Shown: positions 11,561 to 30,658 of the stretch, in pieces
How positions within the stretch are numbered: position 1 is the first letter of the stretch
Layout of the letters: each line of letters begins with the position of its first letter
NCBI GenBank assembly: GCA_024275235.1
Contig: JAJRZN010000005.1
Span: 1-35,340, forward strand
Direction of reading: 5' to 3'
Length of the DNA: 35,340 bases
Source of the DNA: Deltaproteobacteria bacterium
GTDB taxonomy: Bacteria > Desulfobacterota > Desulfobulbia > Desulfobulbales > VMSU01
Translations under genes and position numbers: made by a program
Notes under the pieces: model-generated
The model's input: only the letters and a program-made list of their open reading frames with translations
What the model was told of the DNA's origin: nothing
Database searches by the model: none

Positions 11561-12538
11561 TTGTCGGGACTAAAAGCGGATATCGGAGTAAATATCGTGT
11601 CAGCCCCCAAGGAGACAAATTTTGCCGCCATTGATCTGGGTAGTAATAGTTTCCGCCTGCTGGCGGTCTCCGGTCTGTCGGCGAAATGGCCTCCACGCCG
11701 AATTTTGCTTGATAGCTGCCGTCAGACCTGCCTTGGTGAGGAATTAACAACAACAGGTGGATTAAGTGCGGCGGCCCGCCGGCGCGGACTTGCCGCCTGT
11801 CGGATATTTGCTGGACAATTGCGGGAGCTGCCGGTTATGCCGTTACGGGCCTGTGGTACTCAAGCCCTGCGTCAGGCGGTCAACAGCCGGGAATTTATTC
11901 AAGAGGTCAAAGAAATTTTATCCTGCCGCGTTGATATCCTCAGCCCGGAGCAGGAGGCGGCATATACTCTTCTGGGTTGTCAGGCCGGGCAAAAAAAGGA
12001 CAGCCACCCTTTGCTTTTAGTCGATGCCGGGGGCGGCAGTACCGAGATAATCCTGGCCCGCTACAGACAGAAGCCGCTTATCCGCAGTCTGCCCATCGGG
12101 GTAGTCAATTTAACGGAACGATTTTTCCAGGCCGGAATCAACGCCCCGGCCCTGGCTCAAATGAGAATTTTTCTCATTGAACAGATTGGGCCCGTATTGA
12201 GTGAGCTGCTGCCTGCCAATCTCAGTAAAGTACGTCTCGCGGCCTCCGGCGGTACCGCTAACGCCCTGGCCATGCTCTCCCTGGGACTGCGGGACTACCA
12301 GGCGGAATTGATTCAGGGCAGCAGATTGACCAGAGCCGGATTAGATAAAATTCTGGCCCGCTTAATGACTCTCAGCTCCAGGGCACTCCGCTCTATACCG
12401 GGCATAAGAGCAAGAGGAGTAATTATTCCGGCGGGTATAATGCTGCTTCAGGCCATTATTGAATTTGTCGGTCAGGACTTAACCGTAAGTACCAGCGGAT
12501 TTCTAGAAGGAATTATTCTGCGTCATGGGGATGATTGA
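11561..12538 (+). CDS. Ppx/GppA exopolyphosphatase/pppGpp phosphohydrolase family (start uncertain; GTG at 11597 is an alternative)
   Basis: NFAAIDLGSNSFRLLAV, LLVDAGGGSTEIIL, LAASGGTANALA. Confidence 0.92.
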   Translation: MSGLKADIGVNIVSAPKETNFAAIDLGSNSFRLLAVSGLSAKWPPRRILLDSCRQTCLGEELTTTGGLSAAARRRGLAACRIFAGQLRELPVMPLRACGTQALRQAVNSREFIQEVKEILSCRVDILSPEQEAAYTLLGCQAGQKKDSHPLLLVDAGGGSTEIILARYRQKPLIRSLPIGVVNLTERFFQAGINAPALAQMRIFLIEQIGPVLSELLPANLSKVRLAASGGTANALAMLSLGLRDYQAELIQGSRLTRAGLDKILARLMTLSSRALRSIPGIRARGVIIPAGIMLLQAIIEFVGQDLTVSTSGFLEGIILRHGDD

Positions 12539-12707
12539 GTTGCTGCCTCATGCTTTTTATAAAAACGCCGTTTTGGTCATTTATGAAAATAATTTGGTAA
12601 CTGTTCAAAATAACGGTCATGCACGACTATCCGAACACAATGAAACATGATAGTCTTGATAAGGCCAACATCCCTGGCAGGTGACTTTCATATAAGTGTT
12701 GAACTAT

Positions 12708-12909
12708 GATGGACTCGTAAAAAGTCCATCACTAACTAAAGATGGCTAAGTCAGCTAAGCGAAGACTGTGAAAAGTTCGATATACAGGTAAGCGAGTTTA
12801 CGAGACTCCGAGGCGTGGTGGTTCGGCAGGGCTTCGGCCATACATATGGTATGCCGAAGGTCTGCCGAACCACCACAACACCGTAGATCGGACTTTTTAC
12901 GACGCCATC
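12708..12909. mobile_element. MITE-like element copy A (202 bp) with TIRs and 6-bp target-site duplication AACTAT (12702-12707 and 12910-12915)
   Basis: GATGGACTCGTAAAAAGTCCATC at left; the right end reads GATGGCGTCGTAAAAAGTCCGATC when reverse-complemented; flanked by AACTAT on both sides; central hairpin 12815-12876. Confidence 0.88.
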
Positions 12910-12958
12910 AACTATTACAAGCCAACCACCATAATTTTTTTCCTGGGAGTTCTTTGCG

Positions 12959-14419
12959 ATGCAAGATAAAATTATACTTGATGCCTATACCTTTGACGAC
13001 CTGCTGCTGGTTCCACAGGCCTCCGATGTCCTGCCCGCCGAGGTGGAACTCGGCACCCGATTGACCAGGACGATTAATCTGCAGATTCCCCTGATCAGTG
13101 CCGCTATGGACAGTGTCACCGAGCACCGGACGGCCATCAGCATGGCCCGGGAAGGGGGGATGGGCATTATTCATAAAAACATGGGGATTAATAACCAGAT
13201 TCTGGAGGTACAGAGGGTCAAAAAATCCGAATCCGGTATGATTGTTGATCCAATTACCGTGGAGGAGGAGGCCACGGTGGCCGATGTCCAGGCCATTATG
13301 CAGCGTTTTCATATCTCCGGGGTACCGGTAAGGCAGGGTAAAAAGCTGGTGGGAATTGTCACCAACCGTGACCTGCGCTTTGTCTCCGACCCCCTGCTCC
13401 GGGTACGCGATGTCATGACCAGCAAGAATCTGATAACCGCTAAAGTTGGAATTACCCTGGAACAGTCCAAGGCCCTGCTCCATGAACACCGGATTGAAAA
13501 ATTGCTGGTAGTGGACGACGAGGGTAATTTAACGGGGCTTATTACTACCAAGGATCTGGAAAAAATCAAACGCTACCCTCACGCCGCCAAGGATGACCTG
13601 GGTCGTCTGCTGGTGGGGGCGGCAATTGGGGTTGACACCCCCCCCGAATCATTAGATGGTCTGATGAAGGCCGGAGTGGATATTGTGGTTCTGGATTCCG
13701 CCCATGGTCATTCCCGAAATATCATCAACGCCTTAAAGAGATTAAAAGACAACTTTCCCGACCTGCAGGTGGTGGCCGGCAATATTGCCACTCCGGAGGC
13801 GGTGGTAGATCTGATAAAGGCCGGGGCTGACTGCGTCAAAATCGGAGTGGGGCCGGGTTCAATCTGCACTACCAGGATTGTGGCTGGAGTCGGGGTACCG
13901 CAGATGACCGCGATCTATCGCTGCGCCAAAGCAGCGGCTGAATACGATATTCCAGTGATTGCCGACGGCGGGATTAAATTTTCCGGTGATATTACCAAGG
14001 CCATCGGCATGGGGGCTCATGTTATTATGGTAGGCAGTCTCTTTGCCGGTACCGATGAGGCACCGGGGGAGACCTTTTTATATCAGGGCCGTACCTATAA
14101 GGGGTATCGGGGTATGGGCTCTCTTGGGGCCATGAAAAAGGGCAGCAGTGACCGCTATTTTCAGGATAAAGTAGAGAATCCCGCCAAACTGGTTCCTGAG
14201 GGTATTGAAGGAAAGGTACCCTATCGGGGGCCGATTTCAGACACCATCTATCAGCTGCTCGGCGGTCTGCGCTCAGGTATGGGTTATGTGGGGGCCAGGG
14301 ATATTGAGGCCCTGCGCCAGCGGGCAAAATTCGTCAGGATTACCGCTGCCGGGCTCAAGGAAAGTCACGTTCACGATGTTATTATTACCAAGGAGGCGCC
14401 TAATTACCGCTTAGGATGA
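12959..14419 (+). CDS. guaB: IMP dehydrogenase with CBS domains
   Basis: [53 protein letters not shown]. Confidence 0.98.
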
Positions 14420-29173: not shown

Positions 29174-29266
29174 GCCTCTGTATAACTCCACCCATTAGCA
29201 GTTGCGGGAAGTGTCTCTATTGTGTTAAGATGGGCAAATTTGTTTGTTGTAATTTTGTTGAGAGAT

Positions 29267-30289
29267 ATGGTGGAAAAGAAAAAAACAGCCGCGAGAAAAC
29301 GTAACTGCAGGAAATTATCCCAGAGAACTGCCAAGGAGCGTCTGCGGGAATTTCTGGAGTTATTCAGCAAGGAAGATGACGTCCTGCTGGTTATTAATGC
29401 CGATCCGGACGCGCTGGCCTCGTCCCTGGCCGTGAAACGTCTGCTGCGCTATAAGGTACGAAGCGTAACCATCAGTTATCCCAACGAAATCAGACGGCTG
29501 AGTAATCTCGCCATGGTGGATCTTCTGAAGATTCCCATTGAACGTCTCCATAATATTTCCCTTAAAAACTATTCCAAAAAGGTAATGCTGGATTCTCAGC
29601 CCCTGCATCTGCCGGCCTTTGAAAATATCGCCTTTGACGCCGTGATTGACCATCATCCCATAACCAGCGGCTGGGAGGCGGATTATATAGATTTACGGCC
29701 TGATTACGGGGCCGTGGCTTCAATGATGATTGAATACCTGCGGGCCGGCGGGATGAAGCCCTCGGTGGCTCTGGCCACCGCCCTCTTTTACGCCATTAAA
29801 GTTGACACCAACAATTTCGAGAAAAAGGCCAATCTGGCCGATGCCATTTCCTTTCGTTATCTCTTTAATCTGGCCAATCATAATCTGGTGCGCAAGATTG
29901 AGTTGTCTGAACTGCGAATCTCGGAATTAAATTATTTCCGTACCGCCTTAACCGAGATGAAGATCTCCAACAACCGGCTTTATGTTCATGTCGGCCGGGT
30001 ATATAACCCTGACATTCTGGTAATTATCGCGGATTTTTTTAATCATGTCCAAAAGGTGTCATGGGTCTTTGTCTCCGGTATTCATGGTGAACGTCTCGTG
30101 GTCATCTTCCGCTGTGACGGTTATAAGAAAAATGCCGGCCGCCTGGCAGAAAATATATTCGCCGAGGTGGGGTCGGCCGGCGGCCATCGGGAGGCGGCCA
30201 GGGCTGAGGTGCCGCTTAAAAATCTTGACAAGCATGACCAGGATTTCAGTACCAGAATCCTGATGCGTCTGACAAGAAGGCATATGTGA
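29267..30289 (+). CDS. DHH/DHHA1-family phosphoesterase
   Basis: NADPDALASSLAV, DAVIDHHPI, C-terminal GGHREAA. Confidence 0.88.
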   Translation: MVEKKKTAARKRNCRKLSQRTAKERLREFLELFSKEDDVLLVINADPDALASSLAVKRLLRYKVRSVTISYPNEIRRLSNLAMVDLLKIPIERLHNISLKNYSKKVMLDSQPLHLPAFENIAFDAVIDHHPITSGWEADYIDLRPDYGAVASMMIEYLRAGGMKPSVALATALFYAIKVDTNNFEKKANLADAISFRYLFNLANHNLVRKIELSELRISELNYFRTALTEMKISNNRLYVHVGRVYNPDILVIIADFFNHVQKVSWVFVSGIHGERLVVIFRCDGYKKNAGRLAENIFAEVGSAGGHREAARAEVPLKNLDKHDQDFSTRILMRLTRRHM

Positions 30290-30482
30290 TGGACTCGTAA
30301 AAAGTCCATCACTAACTAAAGATGGCTAAGTCAGCTAAGCGAAGACTGCGAAAAGTTCGATATACAGCTAAGCGTAGACTGCAAGGCGTGGTGGTTCGGC
30401 AGGGCTCCGACTATACATGTGGTATGCCGGAGGTCTGCCGAAACGCCACAACGCCGTAGATCGAGCTTTTTACGACGCCATT
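30288..30482. mobile_element. MITE-like element copy B (195 bp) with 6-bp TSD ATATGT (30282-30287 and 30483-30488)
   Basis: Same TIRs and internal sequence as copy A; flanking ATATGT on both sides; central hairpin 30388-30449. Confidence 0.88.
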
Positions 30483-30503
30483 ATATGTAACTATCCCGCT
30501 AAT

Positions 30504-30538
30504 TTCAGCAGCCCCCATCTCGGAGTCTACGCTTACCT
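30504..30538 (+). repeat. Partial copy of the second repeat family
   Basis: TTCAGCAGCCCCCATCTCGGAGTCTACGCTTACCT matches 20536-20570 at 32 of 35 positions. Confidence 0.7.
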
Positions 30539-30658
30539 CCGCATTATTGTTTTACCCCCCCCCCTTTTTTTTATTACTCTTATTGTCAATTCCTCTTGTG
30601 CCACTTGGTGGGACTTTGAACAGGCTCCTTTCTCTTTGAAAAACTTGTAACAACTTGT

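Follow-up and report, generated by a model that had tools for sequence, protein, structure and literature searches.

Insertion sequences of the IS1182 family differ in what they leave at their targets: ISPse1 produces a target-site duplication (TSD) of 4 bp (PMC3281130), and IS1272 produces none and replaces a target stem-loop (PMC5678879). Among bacterial MITEs, the Chunjie element of Geobacter uraniireducens, as a review describes it, measures 178-235 bp, is present in 38 full and 57 partial copies, and has inserted into an operon without disturbing it (PMC10969869). The same review describes the QMITE families of Coxiella burnetii, which form size classes and include truncated REP-like copies that have lost their direct repeats (PMC10969869). 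The window analysed here, by which we mean the whole stretch of 35,340 nucleotides, is one contig of a 2.79-Mb genome (G000; 269 contigs, 93% complete) that is probably metagenome-assembled and, judging by its gene content and relatives, comes from a Desulfobulbales-like member of the Desulfobacterota. It carries two short elements, copies A and B (Table 1), which, judging from their sequences and those of their relatives, are very probably non-autonomous type II MITEs that an IS1182-like DDE transposase moves, or formerly moved, in trans.

Table 1. Positions of the MITE copies of the window and of the truncated copies found elsewhere in the same genome.
Feature	Position	Strand	Evidence
6-bp target duplication, left (AACTAT), of MITE copy A	12702..12707	+	sequence, TSD tabulation
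MITE copy A, 202 bp, type II, without ORF; ACT end 12708-12730, GCG end 12886-12909	12708..12909	+	
Internal palindrome of copy A (GTGGTGGTTCGGCAG...CTGCCGAACCACCAC), strong hairpin	12814..12877	+	self-match 12815-12876 on the - strand
6-bp target duplication, right (AACTAT), of MITE copy A	12910..12915	+	
6-bp target duplication, left (ATATGT), of MITE copy B; overlaps the final codons of a DHH-family gene	30282..30287	+	
MITE copy B (195 bp), whose initial GA finishes the TGA stop of the DHH gene (29222-30289)	30288..30482	+	
6-bp target duplication, right (ATATGT), of MITE copy B	30483..30488	+	
Truncated one-ended copies L072, L074, L077, L078, L081, L085	G000 contigs C117, C153, C200, C206, C251, C56		

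Copy A lies between a Ppx/GppA gene, which ends at 12538, and guaB, which starts at 12959. Its junctions read AACTAT/GATGGACTCGTAAAAAGTCCATC...GATCGGACTTTTTACGACGCCATC/AACTAT, and those of copy B read ATATGT/GATGGACTCG...TCGAGCTTTTTACGACGCCATT/ATATGT. The two copies are 89% identical, and no ORF of at least 80 aa is found within either of them. Both carry terminal inverted repeats (TIRs; GATGGnnTCGTAAAAAGTC), the two ends being GATGGACTCGTAAAAAGTC and GATGGCGTCGTAAAAAGTC; over the first 19 bases, 16-17 positions agree between the ACT end and the GCG end. By itself, the ACT end is a perfect 8-bp hairpin (GATGGACT-cgtaaaa-AGTCCATC), and the right half of the element is occupied by the long palindrome. 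As RNA, the whole of copy A has a minimum free energy of about -98 kcal/mol on the + strand and about -89 kcal/mol on the - strand; no Rfam match was obtained in the window. The original prediction had given the coordinates, ends and duplications of both copies exactly as we find them. It had also described highly similar interiors, the lack of a credible ORF and terminal inverted repeats, all of which are borne out, the repeats being imperfect. Other dispersed repeats adjoin the two copies. Beside copy A, positions 12608-12695 belong to a second such repeat, which is intergenic (…TGGCAGGTGACTTTCATAT) and has many matches in genomes G001-G003; beside copy B, positions 30504-30539 belong to a third (about 36 bp; GCAGCCCCCATCTCGGAGTCTACGCTTACCTCCGCA), with at least 20 matches in G001.

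A genome-wide search with copy A, which had been proposed as a check, retrieved about 40 long copies, which fall into one size class of about 195-203 bp and another of about 161-162 bp. Allowing at most one mismatch, the end pattern gave 88 matches across the genome and its reversed control gave 0. The tabulation of TSD length, also proposed, revealed an exact 6-bp duplication in 19 of the 26 copies with both ends readable; three more had a single mismatch, and two of the remaining four resemble 7 bp. When left and right flanks were taken from different copies (shuffled pairs), they agreed in 1.5% of cases; both the end matches and the TSDs thus far exceed what chance would give. The duplicated sites share the consensus AWNNNT, or A-(A/T)-N-N-N-T, with A at position 1 in 18/19 and T at position 6 in 19/19. 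Some copies depart from the common form. L010, L011, L014 and L027 have a 23-bp insert (CGTTTCATGACAAGCATGTTAAC) at the same position inside one terminal repeat, or a degenerate end (L010). Some copies have the insert in their left end and others in their right end, and L014 and L027 keep exact 6-bp TSDs (ATTCGT and ACTGTT) despite the altered end.

Comparison with related genomes, a further check that had been suggested, shows that sites A and B are both empty in the congener G001. At site B, the DHH gene of G001 shows 94-95% identity precisely as far as the base that precedes the element, after which it continues as CATATGTAAC; the empty allele (CATATGTAA) contains ATATGT once and has TAA as its stop codon. 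On the right of copy B, homology stops after ATATGTAAC, so this empty site has a short right flank. Insertion replaced the TAA stop of the G001 allele by a TGA made from the TSD and the element end and, since the first bases of the element make CAT ATG TGA, the DHH protein is unchanged. Site A lies upstream of guaB, which encodes IMP dehydrogenase. In G003 (C151, L348), the intergenic region upstream of guaB that corresponds to that of copy A also contains a MITE, with the TSD AACGCT on both sides. Because the two guaB-upstream copies have different but in each case perfect TSDs, they are independent insertions.

These comparisons bear on the view that the family is old and static, its hairpins having been retained as regulatory or terminator elements after mobility was lost. 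Such a history would be consistent with an assembly that has no transposase, with the intergenic position of both window copies and with the median identity of the copies, about 93%. However, identity reaches a maximum of 98-99%, the 139-bp ends of three copies (L024-L026) look identical, the TSDs are intact, and the G003 copy was acquired separately, all of which make a static family improbable. The near-identical copies, the intact TSDs and the empty sites show that the family moved after the split from G001.

Unexpectedly, six truncated copies of the same genome keep the GCG end only; they break off within about 55-66 bp, where the internal hairpin has its tip. The direct repeats that flank them are about 15-26 bp long and thus exceed 6 bp. 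They are exact at L074 (18 bp) and L081 (16 bp), and inexact at L072 (21/22), L078 (22/26), L085 (21/26) and L077 (about 15, with a gap). On one side the repeat ends at the terminal repeat of the element; the opposite boundary is the point where similarity to the element stops. The empty-site comparison was readable for two of the six, the relatives being too diverged or devoid of the flank at the other four. A single copy of the repeat was found for L074 in G003 and for L077 in G001 and G003, which shows that L074 and L077 are real insertions. No long duplication was seen at truncated copies that keep only the ACT end. As the likeliest reading of these copies we tentatively raise a second, one-ended route of insertion, possible but on balance doubtful, in which the GCG end alone is joined, the copy stops at the hairpin tip and about 15-26 bp are duplicated. 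After strand transfer of the GCG end alone to the target, the extruded hairpin might be cut at its tip or cause stalling there, with loss of the remainder of the copy. End-joining to a second-strand break about 15-26 nt away could then generate the longer duplication, a mechanism that is speculative. Action on stem-loops has been proposed for IS1272, of the IS1182 family (PMC5678879), and a structure-dependent step therefore merits testing.

The original prediction had also called for a transposase gene carrying these ends, and such genes were found in G066 and in other genomes. In G066, a complete genome of the same order, convergent ends bound an IS of 1887 bp (L302:2950-4836) with the TSD ATATTT and a single ORF of 584 aa. 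Its left end is identical to the GCG end of the MITE at 18/18 positions, and an IS end in G043 is identical to the ACT end at 19/19. The IS and the MITE have these 18-19 terminal bases and nothing else in common, which defines a type II MITE. Five copies of the IS in G066, and others in G043, G091, G162, G171 and G174, carry variants of the same end, and their TSDs are of 6-7 bp where readable. The G066 transposase contains the Pfam domains DUF772, DDE_Tnp_1 and DDE_Tnp_1_6. Its best NCBIfam match is IS1182 (E = 4e-46), with 157.8 bits against a curated cut-off of 270. All seven homologues tested (that of G066 and six others) have IS1182 as their best NCBIfam match, at 135-172 bits, below the same cut-off; as the curated model is not passed, we name the element IS1182-like. 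Residues D157, D362 and E487 are invariant in an alignment of eight homologues and were assigned, from this conservation, as putative catalytic DDE residues. A search by sequence for PDB relatives of protein P0001 returned none.

The transposase protein was detected in 18 of 251 genomes of the order (G066 and 17 others). The exact TIR is commoner in transposase-bearing genomes (12/18 versus 82/240, p = 0.007), the genomes being not phylogenetically independent. No intact transposase with these ends was found in the assembly of the MITE-bearing genome (93% complete), in its genus or in its family; G001 has a 48-aa transposase remnant containing a stop. At least 14 contigs of the assembly end inside a MITE copy, and a multicopy IS of greater length could therefore easily have remained unassembled; since the MITE breaks the assembly, the missing transposase carries little evidential weight. 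The claim that the elements are non-autonomous and mobilised in trans is supported: their ends and TSDs match those of the IS, and from this match we infer mobilisation in trans. The IS1182-like transposase, or a close relative that was lost or left unassembled, probably acted on the window copies. It would recognise the end of about 19 bp, GATGGnnTCG(T/C)AAAAAGTC, and insert the element into 6-bp, AT-rich sites that follow AWNNNT (phylum-wide, AANNTT-like), where staggered cutting would duplicate the 6 target bp.

Two further sources of mobility were weighed. An unrelated transposase with a 6-bp stagger might have converged on the same ends, and several other DDE_Tnp_1 genes are indeed present in the family of the host. 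However, these loci have no TIR in their flanks, L120 excepted, and the ends and TSDs of the MITE match the IS1182-like element exactly, which renders an unrelated mobiliser very unlikely. The TIR beside the L120 transposase belongs to an independent MITE (TSD AATCTT), and the unrelated transposase gene there has different ends. Spread as REP/BIME-like palindromes by a RAYT (HUH, Y1_Tnp) transposase, although it would agree with the strong internal and terminal hairpins, with Y1_Tnp genes in 9/10 genomes of the family and with a near-match to the TIR in a RAYT gene of the same genome (L086:8550-8568), is largely refuted and hardly credible, as 6-bp TSDs are the rule in the MITE family whereas HUH transposases are not known to make target duplications, an IS with identical ends exists, and no fetched Y1_Tnp locus has the TIR in its flanks. 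The L086 match is due to chance and lies inside coding sequence (..NFYDAIIR..).

Other candidates for an autonomous element were rejected. The 806-bp TIR pair at L082 (1704-2509) is not a transposon; it consists of two MITE ends around a gene for a HAD-type phosphatase, without a TSD, and this gene is either bracketed by two truncated copies or captured. The 1390-bp pair at L232 represents separate MITEs around a sigma-factor-like gene. Twenty proteins encoded by ORFs beside single TIRs were scanned, and no transposase was among the Pfam families listed.

The exact end GATGGnnTCGTAAAAAGTC is present in 94 of 258 genomes of the order, and the reversed-pattern control gave 0 matches. A scan of named genomes detected it in at least 118 stretches, and almost all of the matches listed come from Desulfobacterota, including Desulfobacteraceae, Desulfobulbaceae, Desulfuromonadales, Syntrophaceae, Geobacteraceae and others. 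Nearly all of the matches listed are short (about 80-350 bp) and differ in their interiors. Tandem insertions also occur: at L220, L260, L275 and L302 a MITE has entered the target that an earlier insertion had duplicated (at L302, that of the autonomous IS), so that the same short site was reused. Among these matches (127 TIR instances in 118 stretches), a partner end lies at most 400 bp away in 91, and 48 of the 91 have an exact 6-bp TSD of the AANNTT type. No similar element was found in the phage and plasmid collections. The TIR pattern occurs in nine viral contigs, none of which contains an autonomous element.

The elements are short, end in TIRs, contain no transposase gene, occur in many dispersed copies with TSDs of constant length, are missing from empty sites in relatives, and have an autonomous element with matching ends. 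This is a genuine and widespread type II MITE family, and a biologically ordinary one. In open-access literature the end sequence was not found as part of a described repeat, the matching articles bearing titles on unrelated subjects. The family, its breadth and its partner appear undescribed in the open-access literature searched, a scope outside which ISfinder lies; systems of this kind are well known. The 19-bp end, which is highly conserved and extends to many other Desulfobacterota, is now tied to a specific IS1182-like transposase. This makes it possible to annotate these repeats, at which many assemblies of sulfate-reducer metagenomes break, and to test their partner. The one-ended copies and their long duplications may preserve, as natural traces, a transposition pathway that was either aborted or alternative, in a transposase family with a member, IS1272, for which structure-dependent insertion has already been claimed.

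Compared with described systems, the family resembles Chunjie as a MITE of a related bacterium, a comparison made from the description in the review, with ends and TSD outside it. It resembles the QMITE families in having size classes and truncated copies; however, the truncated copies of the present genome gained long duplications (about 15-26 bp), whereas those of QMITE lost their repeats. The partner IS is like members of the IS1182 family such as ISPse1 and IS1272 in its DDE transposase with DUF772, DDE_Tnp_1 and DDE_Tnp_1_6 domains, and in its organisation as a single ORF of about 580 aa within a 1.9-kb element bounded by TIRs, but it differs from them in its fixed TSD of 6-7 bp.
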